In this document: piece after piece, positions 6,335-13,666 of the stretch
How positions within the stretch are numbered: the first letter of the stretch is position 1
How the letters are laid out: each line of letters begins with the position of its first letter
Source of the DNA: Nitrospirota bacterium
GTDB taxonomy: Bacteria; Nitrospirota; Thermodesulfovibrionia; Thermodesulfovibrionales; JdFR-88
Direction of reading: 5' to 3'
Length of the DNA stretch: 64,000 nt
NCBI GenBank assembly: GCA_021813405.1
Contig: JAKAKS010000018.1
Span: forward strand, 1 to 64,000
Translations under genes and position numbers: made by a program
The notes under the pieces: generated by a model
What the model was told of the DNA's origin: nothing
The model's database searches: none
The model's input: only the letters and a program-made list of their open reading frames with translations

Positions 6335-8365
6335 TCAGATCTTGAATTTCTGCAGTTCTGATGATAGGTTGGATGCCTGCTCTTTTAACGAATTTACGGA
6401 ACCGGCCATGTCCTTTACCGAGAGCACAAGGCTGTCTGCCATTCCGTTTACCTTCTGCATGTGCCCGGCAAGCTCCACGCTCATCTTTTTCTGGCGTTCC
6501 GTGAAGTGCGCAATCTGGACCGATTGCCCGGCCACGCTCTCGGCGGCCACGGATATCTGTACGCTGCCGCCCTTCTGGTCGTTTGCGGCGGACTTCACCT
6601 GGGCGGAAAGGTCCTTGATCCTTCCGGTCGCGTCAATGATAAGCTGGCTTCCCCTTGTCTGTTCCTGGAGCGCCCTGGATATCTTTTCCGTCTGCTCGGT
6701 CATGTTGCGGATGGTTTTGCTGATCTGCTTTACCACAACGGATTCTTCGGCGGTGGCCTTCCGGATTACCCTGGCCATCTCAGTTGAGGCGTTAGAGCTT
6801 TTCACTATGTTCTGGAGGGCACTGTGCACTTCCCTTACATGCGCCAGGCCCGTATTAACGGACTGTATCCCGTCGGCGGCCTTTTCGACGCTGGAACTGA
6901 CCATTTCCTGCACAGACTTTATAAGCAGCGATATCTCCTTGGTTGAATTGGCGGTCCTTTCCGCCAGCCCTTTAATCTCGTTGGCCACAACGGCAAAACT
7001 GTCCCCGTAGCTGCCCGCCTGGGCGGCCAGAATGGCTGCGTTCAGCGCCAGCAGACCGGTCTGGTCTGCAACTCCGTCAATTACCGTGACCACGGAGCCT
7101 ATCTCCTCCGATTTCACGCCCAGGGCATTTACAGCCTCGGAAATGTCCGCAACGCTGTTTTTGATATTGTCTATGCCGCGAATGGCCGTTTCGGCTGTCT
7201 GCATGCCTTTTTGGGAGGCTGTCTGAAGCAGGCTTTCGGCAAGCGCGGCGGACTCAACGGCGCTTTTTTCTATGTCCTTGATAGTCACGTTCACCTCCTC
7301 CACAGAGGAGGCGATGGACTCGGAGGAACTGGAATGGGTCTCCAGGCCTTCGGATATCTGGTTGATGCTGGTTATCATCTGTTCTATTGAGGTGACGGTC
7401 TCGCTGGCCGCCGCATCGAAGACCTCGGCGCTTTCAGCGATGGTGGAGATAGCGCTGGTCAGCTGGGCTATCGAGGCGGAGGTTTCCTGCGAAGCCGTTG
7501 AAAGCCCTTCCGTGGCGGCGTACACAGTGGCCGTGGATTCGTTGAGATCGGCCAGGGTAACTCCGGCCTCCGCCAGGGATGTTTTTTGATCTTCCACCCC
7601 GGCCACCACAACACGGGAGGACTCGTCCACCTGATGGGAAACTTCCGATATTATCCCGTTTATATTTATTATCTTGCCAAGCATCTGTTTGAAACTATCC
7701 GAGATTGTATTCAGGGAAGCGTTCATTGAGGCTATCTCGTCATTTCCCCTGATGCCGGCCCTCACCGTAAGGTCCCCGGAGGCTATCTGATGCGCTTTTC
7801 TGTTAAGCAGGTCTATCCGCTTTATGACGATGCGGTTCAGAAGAAAAAGCAGCAGGGCCGCCGACAAAGTCAGGCCCAGGGCCATCTGCAGGAGCGCTAT
7901 GCGTGCGTCCTTCATCAGCCTTGCGTAGGACTTGTCGGTTGAAAGCCGGATAGTAACGTTGCCGGAGGGGGTGCCGGCTATTATTACAGGCTCATTGACT
8001 TCTATAAAATGCTTCGCCGGTGTTTTTTTCTTCTGTTCCCTTACCGTTTTGCCGTCGGCGTCTTTTACCCGTACATAAAGCACATCGGGCTGTTTCATGG
8101 TTTTTTGCAGGATGGGGTCCAGAAGGGTATAGTCCAGCGACAGAAGGGCGAATTCGCTAAGGCCGCTTAGCAGCTGGGCCGTGCTGGTGGCCTTGTCCAT
8201 GGCCTGAGTTTTTATCTCGCGGGCCTGGTGCCAGAAGGAATACCCCGTGGTCATTATCATAATAAGCGCCATAAGGCTTATTACCACGGCGCTTATGCGC
8301 GTTCTGAGGCTGCTGGTCCATTTATTGTCCAGAAGGAATTTTCTGTTAGTCAGAAATTTTCGCAT
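6335..8365 (-). CDS. Methyl-accepting chemotaxis protein
   Basis: The protein has 676 residues. Membrane helix 1 is at about 23-45, followed by a small periplasmic sensor of about 115 residues and helix 2 at about 158-182. A HAMP domain follows (GDLTVRAGIRGNDEIASMNA), then a long coiled-coil signalling domain. The hairpin tip reads DQTGLLALNAAILAAQAGSY and then GDSFAVVANEIKGLAERT. Compared with E. coli Tsr, the Glu, Arg and Glu that contact CheA/CheW are Leu, Gln and Ser. From memory, Leu/Gln variants occur in receptors of related phyla. The gene starts inside the end of the PhnD-like gene (20-bp overlap), so the receptor probably responds to that binding protein. Confidence 0.93.
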   Translation of the reverse strand: MRKFLTNRKFLLDNKWTSSLRTRISAVVISLMALIMIMTTGYSFWHQAREIKTQAMDKATSTAQLLSGLSEFALLSLDYTLLDPILQKTMKQPDVLYVRVKDADGKTVREQKKKTPAKHFIEVNEPVIIAGTPSGNVTIRLSTDKSYARLMKDARIALLQMALGLTLSAALLLFLLNRIVIKRIDLLNRKAHQIASGDLTVRAGIRGNDEIASMNASLNTISDSFKQMLGKIININGIISEVSHQVDESSRVVVAGVEDQKTSLAEAGVTLADLNESTATVYAATEGLSTASQETSASIAQLTSAISTIAESAEVFDAAASETVTSIEQMITSINQISEGLETHSSSSESIASSVEEVNVTIKDIEKSAVESAALAESLLQTASQKGMQTAETAIRGIDNIKNSVADISEAVNALGVKSEEIGSVVTVIDGVADQTGLLALNAAILAAQAGSYGDSFAVVANEIKGLAERTANSTKEISLLIKSVQEMVSSSVEKAADGIQSVNTGLAHVREVHSALQNIVKSSNASTEMARVIRKATAEESVVVKQISKTIRNMTEQTEKISRALQEQTRGSQLIIDATGRIKDLSAQVKSAANDQKGGSVQISVAAESVAGQSVQIAHFTERQKKMSVELAGHMQKVNGMADSLVLSVKDMAGSVNSLKEQASNLSSELQKFKI

Positions 8366-9230
8366 AGCTGTAAGTTGACAGGTTTATCCCGGCCTTTTTT
8401 ATCATGCTGTAAAGGGCGCTGTAATCCCGGTCGCTTGCGGCCGTGAAGCCGCTTGCGCCCATCCCCCTCAGCACGCCGCCGGCCCCGGGGTCCGCGGACA
8501 TTCCCAGAAGCGCCGCCTTCAGCCTGCCTGCGGTGGTTTTGTCTATATTGCCGTTTATCGCAAGTACGTTATCGGGGAAGCCCGGCGCGGTATTCATGAC
8601 ACGCAGTTCTCTGGTTACGGAAGTGTTTTTGTAAGCAGTTGTTTCAAATACGCTGTCCTTGGCTGCGCCCATATCTGCCTGGCCGCTCAGGACGGCCGTT
8701 ATTGCAGCCTGATGCGTGCCCGCCCAGAATATTTTTACGTCGTTATCGATGTCTATGCCGAATTTTTTAAAATATATTCTCTGTGCCAGGTAGCCTGTGG
8801 TGCTCAGGGGGTCTACAAGAGCAATGGTCCTTCCCTTCATCGAGGCCGGGCTGTTTATTCTGCTGTTATTCCTGACGAAGGTGAATGCGGTGCATTTGCC
8901 GCCGGTGGCGGGCCTTATCTGCCGTGCCAGCGCTTCTATTTTTGCGTGGCTGTGCGCCATGCAGTAATCAAACGCCCCCATGAATCCGGCGTCCAGGGCG
9001 CCGTCCCTGAGCTCTTCATACAGCGCGCCGTAGTTTGGCAGGAATTTGATGCCTACCCGGATGCCAAGTTTTTGGCCAAGATATCTTGCAAGGGGGGCAT
9101 ACCGGTTAACTTCCTGTTCGATGCCATACTCCGGGATTACGCCGATTATCAGCTTCCCCTGGGCGCAGAGCGCCGGACGCCCGTGGGCAAGCAGCGCGAC
9201 GACGGCAAATATAATGAGCAATTTCTTCAC
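8346..9230 (-). CDS. PhnD-like phosphate/phosphonate-type periplasmic binding protein
   Basis: This 294-residue protein starts with a signal peptide (LLIIFAVVALLAHGRPALCA). The mature part begins KLIIGVIPEYGIEQEVNRYA and contains LSTTGYLAQRIYFKKFGIDI and SGQADMGAAKDSVFE. This is the pattern of the PhnD/type 2 periplasmic binding fold, in which a Ser/Thr loop holds the ligand. No phosphonate permease or ATPase lies nearby. The next gene is a chemoreceptor with a 20-bp overlap, so the protein more likely acts as a ligand-binding partner for sensing than for uptake. The ligand itself cannot be read from the sequence. Confidence 0.85.
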   Translation of the reverse strand: MKKLLIIFAVVALLAHGRPALCAQGKLIIGVIPEYGIEQEVNRYAPLARYLGQKLGIRVGIKFLPNYGALYEELRDGALDAGFMGAFDYCMAHSHAKIEALARQIRPATGGKCTAFTFVRNNSRINSPASMKGRTIALVDPLSTTGYLAQRIYFKKFGIDIDNDVKIFWAGTHQAAITAVLSGQADMGAAKDSVFETTAYKNTSVTRELRVMNTAPGFPDNVLAINGNIDKTTAGRLKAALLGMSADPGAGGVLRGMGASGFTAASDRDYSALYSMIKKAGINLSTYSYAKISD

Positions 9231-9304
9231 TTTCCCTCGCCCGCGCTTATAATAACAAATCTGTAAAATTCAAGCCACGGGACTTGTGGCGAGCTCACGT
9301 CCGG

Positions 9305-10357
9305 TCAGCCTTCGGGTGAGGCCGTTTTGCCCTTCAGGACATCCTCTATATATACCTTCTTTATGAATTCCACGACAAGTGCGGTAAGGGGAGTAGCGGC
9401 AATAACGCCAAGGATTCCAGCAAAAGAGCCCAGCAGCACCTGGGCGATAATGATAATACCCGGCGGCAGTTTGATCTGGTAGCGCTGGATCAGTGGATAT
9501 ACCACATATCCATCCAGTGTATGGATGAAAAGATACAGGAATATTACATACACTGTGGTTGCCGGGCTGGTGAGCAGGGCGATAAGCAAGGCCGGAATGG
9601 CTGAAACTATCGCGCCCAGGTAAGGGACAAATGTTAAAAGCATTGCCAATATTCCCAGGCTTAACGCCAGCGGCACGCCTATGAAATGCAGGCCCAGGGC
9701 AGAGAGCGTGCCTACCAAAGCCATCTCTATGAGCGTTCCCACGAGCCACCTGCGGAGGGCTGTTCCCATTGAATTGAAAAGCTCCTGAATGCTGGCTCTC
9801 TTTCTTTCCGGAAACAGGCTGAATATCCCCCGCATATACGCCTTCGGCTCAAATGACATGTAAACGGTAATAAAAAAGATCACAACCAGGTCTATGACAA
9901 TTCCGGAAAGAGAGGACAGGAAAGATTTGACTCTTTCAATTGCGTTGCCTCCTATCAGGGATTCCAGTTTCGGCGTCTTTCCGATGAATTTCCCGGCCGG
10001 ACCGGCCCCCAGCATGGAAGAAACGCGCGTCCAGGATTCTGAAAGCTTGCGGCCCATTTCGGATGCCTGTGCGGCAATACTGGGTACAAGCAGGATGTAA
10101 ATCAGAAAAAGCAATACCGCAACCGAAAGGTAAATGATAAATACGGAAATCGTGTCCGGCAGCCTTAATGTTTTGCTTAAAAAACCGCTTATGCCGCGGA
10201 TAAGTGTTGAAAAAAGAATGGCAAGGAATATAACAAGCAGAATGCGGACCGCAAACACCACAAACAGGGCACACAGGGTACACCCAAGTGCTATCAGGAC
10301 GGCAATAAGGGCCTTGCGCGCGAATGCTTTTTCCGCAGGTTTTGAATTTGCAGGCAT
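9305..10357 (-). CDS. AI-2E family (PerM/TqsA-type) membrane transporter
   Basis: The 350-residue protein has a paired N-terminal hydrophobic region (about 14-85), a soluble segment (about 90-145), and a C-terminal membrane region containing VPYLGAIVSAIPALLIALLT and the family-typical ILGVIAATPLTALVVEFIKK. Family members export small molecules such as AI-2 or run Na+/H+ antiport; the substrate here is unknown. A second, divergent family member lies at 25585-26634. It is a single gene 74 bp upstream of the PhnD-like gene on the same strand and may be cotranscribed with it. Confidence 0.88.
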   Translation of the reverse strand: MPANSKPAEKAFARKALIAVLIALGCTLCALFVVFAVRILLVIFLAILFSTLIRGISGFLSKTLRLPDTISVFIIYLSVAVLLFLIYILLVPSIAAQASEMGRKLSESWTRVSSMLGAGPAGKFIGKTPKLESLIGGNAIERVKSFLSSLSGIVIDLVVIFFITVYMSFEPKAYMRGIFSLFPERKRASIQELFNSMGTALRRWLVGTLIEMALVGTLSALGLHFIGVPLALSLGILAMLLTFVPYLGAIVSAIPALLIALLTSPATTVYVIFLYLFIHTLDGYVVYPLIQRYQIKLPPGIIIIAQVLLGSFAGILGVIAATPLTALVVEFIKKVYIEDVLKGKTASPEG

Positions 10358-10486
10358 ATGTTTTTCCGGAGCCGTGCTTGGGCTGATATTGGCCCAATGT
10401 GTTTCCTTACAGGCGTTTTAACAAGCGTTTTGATAATTAGAAGTTACCATTTGTTCCGCCCGCAGGCAATATTAACCCGGGCCGCT

Positions 10487-12130
10487 TTAAAGCATGTTTT
10501 TCCCGGAAAAAGAGAAGTAGCCGGATTTGCTGATTATGACGTGATCTGCAAGCTCTATCCTCAACAGCCTGCAAATGGTCTTTACGTTTAGTGTAAGCCG
10601 GATGTCCTCGGCGCTGGGTTCGAGCATTCCGGATGGATGATTGTGCACCAATGCTATGGCCGCCGCCCCGGCAAGCAGGGCGGACCTCACTATCTCCTGA
10701 GGGTAAACTGTTGCCTCGTCCGTTGTCCCGCGCGACACCACGTCGTAAGCTATCAGATTTTTCTGAGCGTCAAGGAAAACCGCAATGAAGTTTTCCTTGG
10801 GCTCCCAGGCCAGCCTGCCGAAAATCCTGTAGATGGAGAGGCCGTTTAAAAGTTTTGCGCTGTGGGGGGCGGTCTTTTCCCGTACAAAATAGCTCCTTAT
10901 TCTGTTTACGTGATACTTAAGGTCAAGGCCTCCGGCATTGCCCTCTCCAAAGGCCTCTCTTATTGCATGGGCAAGCTCTTCAAAATCGTAAGGCTTGCAG
11001 ATGAATTCAAACGGCGTCCCGTCCGCTATCTTTCCGCTGCTGCCTGCGCCGCTTGAAAGGATTGCCTTTATGCCGGGTTTTATCTGTTTGAAAATCTGGA
11101 GGACCTCTGTCCCCGGGATGCCAGGCAGGGCCATATCCAGTATGGCCATATCAATAAGGCCGGATTTTTCATTGAATATGTTCAGGGCCTCTTCTCCGCT
11201 GAAGGCGATAAAGACTGTATAACCGAGTGTCTCAAGCAATTCCTTTACGGCCTCGGCCACGTCGCGCTCGTCCTCCACAAGCAGAATGGTCTCGCAGCCG
11301 CCTTTCATCGCGCCATGCCCCATTTTGTTGCAGGGGTCATCCGGCTGTCCAGGGAAAAAAGCCGTAACTGCGGATATGTTGCTCACCACTTCCATCCAGC
11401 CGCCAAGGTCCTTAAGGGCCTGTTCAGCCAGACAGAGCCTTCCGCTGTTACCGGTTCCGGCCATGCCGCCATCCCATGTAATAGTGAGCCTTATAAACTC
11501 GCTGACCACAGTGCGGATTTTAATGGACTCGGGTGGCAATACTATGTTTTCAAGGGAGACGGTTATTAACCGCGGGCCGCTGCCGTTATGGGCGGTGGAG
11601 GACTCCCTTGCGGCCATCAGCAGGCCCATTACCGCCTGCTGTATCTGTGATGGAGCGCCGAATACCTTCCAGAGGCCAGGAGTGGCTTTCATGACCGTTT
11701 TTACCTTTGGATTCTCTATATTCAGCAGTTCCACCATTTTCCTGGCAAGCATGCCGGTATCTATGAGCTCCGGCCTGTTATTGTCCTGGCTGGAATACTG
11801 TATGTGCTGCACCATCTCCTTGCCGCGCCGGACCGCCGCGAGCGTCCTTTCGATATAGCCGCAGATATTTTCCGGCGATTTCATCTGGGCAAGCTCCATG
11901 TTGCTGAGGATCACTGAAAATATGTTGTTGAACTCGTGCGCTAAGCCGGCAACTGGCCATTCAAGTGGTTTCAGCGCCTGCCGGTGTTTGGACTTTAATG
12001 CCGCATTGCCATTGCCGCGATGGCGGGCCCGCATTACACCCCCATATGCGGCCTGTTCCGGGCGTGCGATTCCGGGGTCTGCGGCCTCAAAAGGGATTCT
12101 TATGGTTGTGTTGCCGGATTTGTTTGGCAT
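10487..12130 (-). CDS. Histidine kinase-receiver-RadC (JAB) fusion protein
   Basis: The 547-residue protein joins three modules. Residues 55-262 resemble a kinase core: the H-box AGLAHEFNNIFSVILSNMEL has a canonical His65, but the ATP-binding half lacks the N-box Asn residues (QAVMGLLMAARESS) and a clear D-x-G-x-G. Residues 279-395 form a full receiver with Glu286/Asp287, phospho-acceptor Asp332 and Lys379. Residues 425-547 are a RadC-type JAB/MPN domain with Glu446, His496 and His498 in LVHNHPSG, Ser506 and Asp509, so the metal-binding residues appear complete. RadC normally follows a DNA-binding HhH region, which is absent here. A strong AGGGGAC ribosome binding site precedes the ATG. It lies downstream of a kinase-regulator pair and behind twin palindromes. 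The function is unknown. Confidence 0.9.
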   Translation of the reverse strand: MPNKSGNTTIRIPFEAADPGIARPEQAAYGGVMRARHRGNGNAALKSKHRQALKPLEWPVAGLAHEFNNIFSVILSNMELAQMKSPENICGYIERTLAAVRRGKEMVQHIQYSSQDNNRPELIDTGMLARKMVELLNIENPKVKTVMKATPGLWKVFGAPSQIQQAVMGLLMAARESSTAHNGSGPRLITVSLENIVLPPESIKIRTVVSEFIRLTITWDGGMAGTGNSGRLCLAEQALKDLGGWMEVVSNISAVTAFFPGQPDDPCNKMGHGAMKGGCETILLVEDERDVAEAVKELLETLGYTVFIAFSGEEALNIFNEKSGLIDMAILDMALPGIPGTEVLQIFKQIKPGIKAILSSGAGSSGKIADGTPFEFICKPYDFEELAHAIREAFGEGNAGGLDLKYHVNRIRSYFVREKTAPHSAKLLNGLSIYRIFGRLAWEPKENFIAVFLDAQKNLIAYDVVSRGTTDEATVYPQEIVRSALLAGAAAIALVHNHPSGMLEPSAEDIRLTLNVKTICRLLRIELADHVIISKSGYFSFSGKNML

Positions 12131-12192: not shown

Positions 12193-12211
12193 AATTACCC
12201 CCGAAAAGGGG
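12193..12211. promoter_or_regulatory. Palindromic operator candidate, site 1
   Basis: AATTACCCCCGAAAAGGGG, with arms CCCC (12199-12202) and GGGG (12208-12211). It matches the site at 12236-12255 in 18 of 19 positions when that site is read in the same direction. It is probably a binding site for a dimeric regulator in front of the fusion gene. Confidence 0.55.
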
Positions 12212-12235
12212 AGAGCGGAGAATTTATTGCATTTA

Positions 12236-12257
12236 AATTACCCCCAAAAAGGGGGTA
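12236..12257. promoter_or_regulatory. Palindromic operator candidate, site 2
   Basis: TACCCCC-AAAAA-GGGGGTA is a perfect 7-bp-arm palindrome (12239-12257). Its centre lies 43 bp, about four helical turns, from site 1. Such phased spacing suggests two regulator dimers on one DNA face. The neighbouring LuxR-type regulator is the obvious but untested candidate. Confidence 0.55.
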
Positions 12258-12285: not shown

Positions 12286-12882
12286 TCAGCTGATCATCTT
12301 CATTACCGCAGAAACGAGGGCGGCCCTGTTATTGACGCCGAACTTGTTGTAAAGGCTGTCCAGGTATTGCTTGGCGGTGGATTCCTTGATGCACAATGCC
12401 CCGGCTATCTCCTGGTTTTTTGTGCAGCCGCTCTCGATCATCAGCTTAAGGATATTCATCTCCCTGGGGGTTATCTTCCAGGGTTTTATCCTGTCCCAGT
12501 AAAAGACCTCGTGTGCGTTTTTTTCAAGGCCTTTTTTTACTGATGCAAGAAGGTCCTCTATCTCAAACGGCTTTGTAAAGTAATCGAGCACCCCCTTGCG
12601 GATCGCCTCCACGGTGCTGTCGATGCTGGGGTAGGCGGTAATAATAATTACCGGCAGGCCGGGCATGTCCCTGAATATATAAGCGATCAAATCCATGCCG
12701 CCACTGCCCCCCGGCATCATCAGGTCCGTGATGACCAGGTCTATTTTTCTGCTTTTTAATACATCAATGGCCCCGTCCAGGGTTTTCGCTCCGGTTACGG
12801 CATAGCCGTGGCTGGTCAGGATGTAGGAGAGGTTTTTTCTGAGCACTTCTTCATCTTCGGCTATGAGGATATGGTATTGCAT
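12286..12882 (-). CDS. Response regulator, receiver plus LuxR-type HTH
   Basis: The 198-residue protein has a receiver domain (residues 1-120): acidic residues in LIAEDEEVLRKN, phospho-acceptor Asp53 in LVITDLMMPG, and Lys in YFTKPFE. A C-terminal LuxR/GerE helix-turn-helix (about 133-195) reads KITPREMNILKLMIESGCTK followed by KESTAKQYLDSLYNKFGVNN. It is a two-component DNA-binding activator. Its start lies one base after the kinase stop, so the pair is an operon. The 155-bp gap downstream, before the RadC fusion gene, contains two near-identical palindromes that could be its binding sites. The phosphodonor is uncertain because the partner kinase is degenerate. Confidence 0.92.
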   Translation of the reverse strand: MQYHILIAEDEEVLRKNLSYILTSHGYAVTGAKTLDGAIDVLKSRKIDLVITDLMMPGGSGGMDLIAYIFRDMPGLPVIIITAYPSIDSTVEAIRKGVLDYFTKPFEIEDLLASVKKGLEKNAHEVFYWDRIKPWKITPREMNILKLMIESGCTKNQEIAGALCIKESTAKQYLDSLYNKFGVNNRAALVSAVMKMIS

Positions 12883-12883
12883 A

Positions 12884-13666
12884 TTAAAAGGGAAGCTGCA
12901 ATTCGGCGGATTGCCTGCCGGTTTTGCCGTTCATCCTGAAGCGCACCGAGCCTGAATATTTGTGCGCAAGCTGCACGCAGATGTCCATCTCCAGCCCATG
13001 GCATCTTTCAGCGGCCCCGGTGTCTTCTATGCAAATGCTGATCTGCCGGCCGGGATTGCGGGTAATTATATAAAGTTCCTTTATTGCGGTCTTTTCCATT
13101 GCCTGCTCGGAATGCCTTACAAGGCCAAGCAGCATTTTCTTTAAATGCCCTTCATAGCACAGCAGTGGCGGAATCCCGGGCCCAAGTTCCGTAAACACGG
13201 ATATCCCGCTGCCGCACAATTTTCTTTTTACTATATCCAGGACTTTTTCGATCTCCGAATTGACGTCCACCGGCTGCATGAAATTTTCATTGGGCCCGTA
13301 AACGTCCAGCAGGGCCTTCACTATGGAAGACATCCTTGCAATCTCGCGCGATATCTCTCTTATTTTTTCCCTGTGCCCATCCGAGTCCAGCCGCATGTTC
13401 TCGACAATATAGAAAGACGTCCTCAGATTGGCAAGCGAACCGTTTATTTCCTGGGCAATCTCAGTGGCTATCATGCCTCTGGCTGCAAACTTTTCGGCCT
13501 CAACAAGCTTGCCCGAAATCTGGCTGGCTATCTCGGCCGCTATGGAGCTGCTCTTTCCTTTTGTGCGCATCGAGGCCACCGCAATAAACCCCCGCCTCCT
13601 GGAGATATCCGTCATGATCAGCGCATGCAAAAAAGTCTCGTCCGATTTGTTAATTCTAACTTTCAT
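12884..13666 (-). CDS. Degenerate sensor histidine kinase (H-box His replaced by Gln)
   Basis: This 260-residue cytoplasmic protein has the layout of a HisKA plus HATPase kinase without a membrane sensor. The H-box region reads GMIATEIAQEINGSLANLRT, with Gln72 where the phosphorylated His is expected (AHEIN in normal kinases). The N-box reads KKMLLGLVRHSEQAM, with both usual Asn residues replaced (Gly181, His185). A G1-like DTG is present at 215-217. It is probably a pseudokinase that may regulate or scaffold, for example as a partner of the His65-containing fusion protein downstream. It is operonic with the response regulator. The N-terminal 40 residues match no domain I recognise. Confidence 0.8.
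   Translation of the reverse strand: MKVRINKSDETFLHALIMTDISRRRGFIAVASMRTKGKSSSIAAEIASQISGKLVEAEKFAARGMIATEIAQEINGSLANLRTSFYIVENMRLDSDGHREKIREISREIARMSSIVKALLDVYGPNENFMQPVDVNSEIEKVLDIVKRKLCGSGISVFTELGPGIPPLLCYEGHLKKMLLGLVRHSEQAMEKTAIKELYIITRNPGRQISICIEDTGAAERCHGLEMDICVQLAHKYSGSVRFRMNGKTGRQSAELQLPF

Follow-up and report, generated by a model that had tools for sequence, protein, structure and literature searches.

RadC is very widespread in bacteria and has no settled function. JAB domains carrying a JAMM motif are metallo-hydrolases; to our knowledge, 2QLC is the only solved RadC, and metallo-hydrolase or DNA-end activity has been proven for none. Receivers control enzymes such as CheB and PleD, and pseudokinases of the DivL and RetS type act on partner kinases. 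Earlier work has argued that nucleic acids or nucleotides are what RadC acts on (PMC5512222, PMC3482391) and has considered it unlikely to have a ubiquitin-tail groove (PMC5512222). Deletion of RadC could not tie it to DNA repair (Attaiech 2008, cited by PMC11981726), and the latter, a 2025 review, sees a continuing need for work on the RadC-like domain. RadC-like DinG helicases and RadC polyvalent proteins of mobile elements resemble the protein described here in that RadC is a module of a larger protein. Their RadC partners are helicases, HhH, ArdC-N and other conflict domains, and two-component domains go unmentioned in the accessible parts of these sources (PMC11981726, PMC5512222).

The gene described here occupies positions 10487-12130, on the reverse strand, of a 64,000-nucleotide stretch of Nitrospirota DNA that was analysed as a whole (the window). 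ORF analysis revealed an ATG start followed by 547 codons with zero internal stops, and ORF, Pfam and orthologue data give the order HisKA-like, degenerate ATPase, REC and RadC-JAB. Pfam scored RadC at 123.8 bits (cut-off 22.1; residues 439-544, model positions 14-119 of 121) and Response_reg at 58 bits (cut-off 30.2; residues 282-391). HisKA reached 22.7 bits over residues 60-117, below its cut-off of 26.9, and no HATPase_c match was found anywhere in the 547-aa protein. The initial annotation had proposed that an H-box domain, a receiver and a JAB domain are joined in one frame with their key residues intact. ORF, Pfam and residue check all agree with this, as His65 (AHEFNN), Asp332, Glu446, His496 and His498 (HNHPSG), Ser506 and Asp509 are present. 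A search of a defence library with the fusion returned weak matches to the receiver part only.

A sequencing frameshift had been named as the event that could have created such a protein, and we examined orthologues accordingly. A whole-protein search of 100 relatives revealed the same architecture in a single frame in G001, a genome of the same genus (93% identity). Single-frame fusions were also found in G005, of the same family (35% identity, 464 aa), and in G018, of another family (43% identity over residues 53-547, 802 aa). Thus, four independently assembled genomes carry the junction in one frame, free of internal stops, with 35-93% identity across it. These observations rule out an assembly or frameshift artefact or a chance join of two genes, the probability of which we consider negligible. 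Of the 176 genomes retrieved for the order, every one of which was searched, four have the architecture; they belong to 3 of 85 genera and to two families.

When the full kinase was used as query for relatives, ordinary kinases dominated the matches. A profile of the REC-RadC part (A2) scored fusions at 1e-126 or better and ordinary RadC at best at about 1e-33 in seven test genomes. With this profile, which may overlook independent fusions of strongly diverged REC and RadC domains, no further fusion was detected in 396 genomes of the same phylum and 230 of the class. Outside the phylum, four samples of about 1,040 genomes in all gave no fusion either; they were drawn from the phyla of G438 (58 genomes, reached via a locus labelled Thermodesulfobacteriota), G439 (Pseudomonadota, 398 genomes), G441 (Acidobacteriota, 297 genomes) and G442 (Victivallales/Lentisphaerota, 289 genomes). 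Likewise, tblastn against 2,868 plasmid and 49 phage records yielded no match spanning 80% of REC-RadC, and in the best 80 IMG/VR RadC loci the match was confined to the RadC part; what these plasmid, phage and viral searches picked up was ordinary RadC or receivers. The best 80 genome-contig RadC loci among the matches listed contained no frame with REC and JAB together, and the 35 DNA matches to the VYPQEIV signature in viral contigs included no RadC. Long RadC frames in G042 (487 aa) and G060 (290 aa) were considered as fusions and rejected, being either RadC with an unrelated C-terminus or a short RadC-like protein, with no REC. L033:981-2441 of G042, a genome of the same order, encodes a 486-aa RadC with a long C-terminal extension that lies near a similar RadC of one Acidobacteriota genome in the tree described below. 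The architecture had been put forward as undescribed, and the open-access literature, as far as its accessible text goes, held neither a RadC joined to kinase or receiver domains nor a two-component protein with a RadC output. The parts are known; their combination is conserved and, to the extent that this literature shows, undescribed.

The C-terminal domain (residues 439-547, positions 10490-10816, reverse strand) is recognised as a RadC-type JAB domain by Pfam, PDB match, alignment and fold. Among solved structures, the nearest is 2QLC, the RadC of Chlorobium tepidum (sequence E = 1.3e-20; 35% identity in the fold alignment), and the AlphaFold model of the JAB part, with pLDDT mostly 94-98, matches this fold with a TM-score of 0.80-0.84 on the target. 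The fusion is like housekeeping RadC (UPF0758; TIGR00608/NF000642) in its JAB fold and in its complete Glu, His-x-His, Ser, Asp (JAMM) site, which is invariant in all four fusions; in the other RadC rows, His and Asp are conserved at 100% and Glu at 92%. Unlike housekeeping RadC, it stands behind a receiver and scores under both curated cut-offs (113.5 vs 133.85 bits for TIGR00608 and 123.6 vs 180 bits for NF000642). Furthermore, no Pfam match to the N-terminal HhH/UPF0758 region was found in the fusion, the N-terminus of which is HisKA/REC.

The fusion also differs at a near-invariant position. Across 158 aligned, non-identical RadC domains, the conserved Arg of the RadC 'PRE' motif, at position 478 (10697-10699), is lost and replaced by Gln in all four fusions, whereas other RadC carry Arg (91%) or Lys (6%), and Gln is not among the five commonest residues of non-fused RadC. 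Since the alignment rows were gathered partly with the fusion's own VYPQE pattern, the absence of Gln elsewhere is no artefact of that pattern. Position 457 is Lys in the fusions vs Asn in 81% of the other RadC of this alignment. The Arg-to-Gln change suggests a substrate different from that of housekeeping RadC. In the tree, the four fused JAB domains form a separate clade (SH-aLRT 94) with one label change, pointing to one origin, and this clade sits outside that of the stand-alone RadC of the order, in a tree of 108 columns with weak deep forks. Fusion-bearing genomes, including that of the window, also encode a separate housekeeping RadC.

The N-terminal half resembles hybrid histidine kinases of CckA type in its HisKA-HATPase-REC order, and CckA models were among the best NCBIfam matches of the fusion. 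It is unlike them in that RadC follows the receiver and in that the window member has neither sensor nor ATP site. HisKA-like dimerisation and phosphotransfer helices (residues 51-120, positions 11771-11980, reverse strand) were identified from the sub-cutoff Pfam match, orthologue alignment and AlphaFold, and contain the H box AHEFNN with His65 at 11936-11938. The model shows two helices, 41-84 and 87-114, and from residue 61 onward most pLDDT values lie at 80-92. The following segment (residues 121-270, positions 11321-11770, reverse strand) is a degenerate HATPase_c remnant, as shown by comparison with the intact G018 protein. The N box reads VMNLYLNARDAI in G018 vs VMGLLMAARESS in the window protein, with both Asn lost, and the stretch of the ATP lid and GSGIGL glycine box (G2 box) is deleted. 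The loss is therefore wider than that of the N-box Asn alone, which was all that had been claimed, and the sequence fits the proposal that the kinase part can only accept or pass phosphate. The kinase remnant was modelled with pLDDT of about 90, and CckA and RetS are among the DHp-CA structures that match its fold. Like the pseudokinases DivL and RetS, the window protein has a kinase fold without normal ATP-dependent function that is kept in signalling; unlike them, the fusion carries its own receiver and enzyme domain.

The G018 protein retains all the motifs of an active hybrid kinase, including the N and G boxes, and its Pfam domains are all over cut-off in one frame: HAMP, HisKA (36 bits), HATPase_c (75), REC (63) and RadC (139). 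Its N-terminus, read from sequence, is a transmembrane periplasmic sensor. The window and G001 proteins have kept His65 and have no sensor or membrane part, and both share the loss of the N-box Asn and the lid/G2 stretch. The parsimonious reading of these sequences would be an ancestral hybrid kinase with a RadC output, the input half of which was then lost in one family. In G018, a gene encoding a periplasmic ABC_sub_bind protein (L034:8139-9062) ends 10 bp before the kinase-RadC gene (9073-11481), and the ligand of this protein may be the signal for the adjacent kinase-RadC. In the window itself, a gene for a PhnD-like periplasmic binding protein overlaps a chemoreceptor gene (HAMP-MCP) at 6335-9230 on the reverse strand; these are probably a binding-protein/chemoreceptor pair, akin to the binding-protein/kinase pair of G018.

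Receiver-controlled enzymes require a complete receiver ahead of the enzymatic domain, and this was found here. The receiver (residues 278-396, positions 10943-11299, reverse strand), identified by its 58-bit Pfam match, PDB receivers and residue check, has the acid pair E286/D287, Asp332 (11135-11137), the Ser switch residue and Lys379. Asp332 and Lys379 are invariant in the four fusions, and the full pocket is present in three, including the window protein. The REC-JAB linker (residues 397-438, positions 10817-10942, reverse strand), delimited by residue spacing and predicted helices, consists partly of lead-in helices of the JAB domain, and Lys379 and Glu446 lie 67 residues apart in three of the fusions and 64 in the fourth. 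The receiver was modelled with pLDDT of about 35, as MAFFT misplaced receiver fragments in the fold alignment, the rows of which left out the fusion homologues from the relative-genome search. In the G005 protein, the H-box His is gone, as are one residue of the acid pocket and the Ser/Thr switch residue of the receiver, which scores 17 bits vs a Pfam cut-off of 30.2, and the whole JAB site is kept. Therefore, not every member strictly requires phospho-gating. The proposal of the initial annotation that a receiver controls RadC is thus supported in part: the architecture is conserved and the intact kinase ahead of REC-RadC in G018 favors signal control, but phospho-gating would not be needed in all members.

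We observed that selection is unevenly distributed along the fusion. Between the congeneric genomes G000 and G001, the JAB domain showed 1 nonsynonymous and 10 synonymous substitutions (dN/dS 0.029), and the rest of the fusion 42 and 38, respectively, a difference with a Fisher p of 0.008 for this one genome pair and a JAB count of 11 substitutions. The dN/dS ratio was 0.215 for the receiver, 0.210 for the HisKA part and 0.354 for the ATPase remnant, making the JAB domain the most constrained folded part and the ATPase remnant the least. The receiver is under purifying selection, at a ratio that does not fall below the HisKA value. The weak constraint on the ATPase remnant would be expected if RadC were always active and the kinase-receiver part had decayed to a dimerisation or docking scaffold recruiting RadC to a partner, with the N-terminus becoming a relic. 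This is the main rival to receiver gating, although we consider it rather unlikely. It draws further support from the loss of sensor and ATP site in three of the four fusions and from G005, in which all JAB residues outlived the H-box His and part of the receiver pocket. The absence of kinase function from three of the four fusions likewise weighs against gating. Conversely, a decaying scaffold accounts poorly for Asp332 and Lys379 being kept in every fusion, for a full pocket in three of them, the window protein with its dead kinase included, for purifying selection on the receiver and for the full kinase of G018.

Two genes lie directly upstream of the fusion on the same strand. The first encodes a FixJ-like response regulator, REC-LuxR/GerE, of 198 aa (12286-12882, reverse strand), recognised by Pfam and kept beside the fusion in G001. 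The second, identified by ORF and Pfam, encodes a kinase-like protein of 260 aa (12884-13666, reverse strand) that ends just before the regulator, and in which the H-box His is replaced by Gln (AQEINGSL) and the N-box Asn is lost, a state shared with G001. This neighbour is a second predicted pseudokinase adjoining the fusion; judging from their motifs, both kinase-like proteins of the cluster seem incapable of forming phosphohistidine from ATP unaided. In G001, the regulator and the kinase-like neighbour have dN/dS of about 0.2. A pattern search revealed two GC-rich, half-similar palindromes between the regulator and fusion genes (12197-12256). One, at 12240-12256, is perfect (ACCCCC-N5-GGGGGT) and is the sole match to its pattern in the genome, although its count in the window alone is not above chance; the weaker copy lies 43 bp from it, and both are largely conserved in G001. 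The perfect palindrome may be a site of the REC-LuxR regulator itself.

This neighbourhood raises a second alternative, in which the fusion would pass or sequester phosphate for the adjacent regulator and kinase-like protein, and RadC would be a non-catalytic accessory module for binding or oligomerisation. Both genomes of the genus have a response regulator and a pseudokinase adjoining the fusion, and the conserved palindrome between the regulator and fusion genes fits such a role. However, the JAB domain rather than the phosphotransfer part is the most constrained, every metal ligand is kept, and in G018 and G005 the immediate neighbours of the fusion gene are neither regulator nor pseudokinase. 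We therefore regard this alternative as improbable.

We give an even chance to the reading in which the fusion is a two-component signalling protein with a specialised, receiver-gated RadC/JAB metalloenzyme as its C-terminal output. The intact kinase upstream of REC-RadC in G018 supports the idea of a signal-controlled RadC. The complete form, that of G018, is a membrane-bound hybrid kinase with the order periplasmic sensor-HAMP-HisKA-HATPase-REC-RadC, encoded beside a periplasmic substrate-binding protein, in which a signal would drive His-to-Asp phosphotransfer. The receiver, whose linker to the JAB domain is of near-fixed length, would then open or position the metal site. The window lineage no longer has the sensor, the transmembrane part or ATP-binding function and retains a soluble dimerisation and phosphotransfer helix pair with REC-RadC. 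Since sensor and ATP site are gone, phosphate must come from a partner, and Asp332 might receive it from another kinase or a small donor. The sequences themselves establish the architecture and its recurrence, the intact metal and receiver residues and the unusual constraint on the JAB part. Phosphorylation, receiver gating and enzyme activity are what we infer the fusion would have, and published arguments about RadC would make a nucleic acid or nucleotide our guess for its substrate. Tentatively, a RadC with a lineage-specific change of a near-invariant residue, as a receiver-gated output that lets an environmental signal sensed in the periplasm switch a hydrolase of nucleic acids or nucleotides (or peptides), could define a class of bacterial signalling proteins.

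If true, no regulated RadC was known before this fusion, which would open a way to the RadC substrate, and a metallo-hydrolase of RadC type would join the known response-regulator outputs. A RadC under a receiver would provide an experimental handle, as one can look for its activity with the switch fixed in either state. Furthermore, the process that RadC serves may be indicated by the sensor of the complete form in G018.
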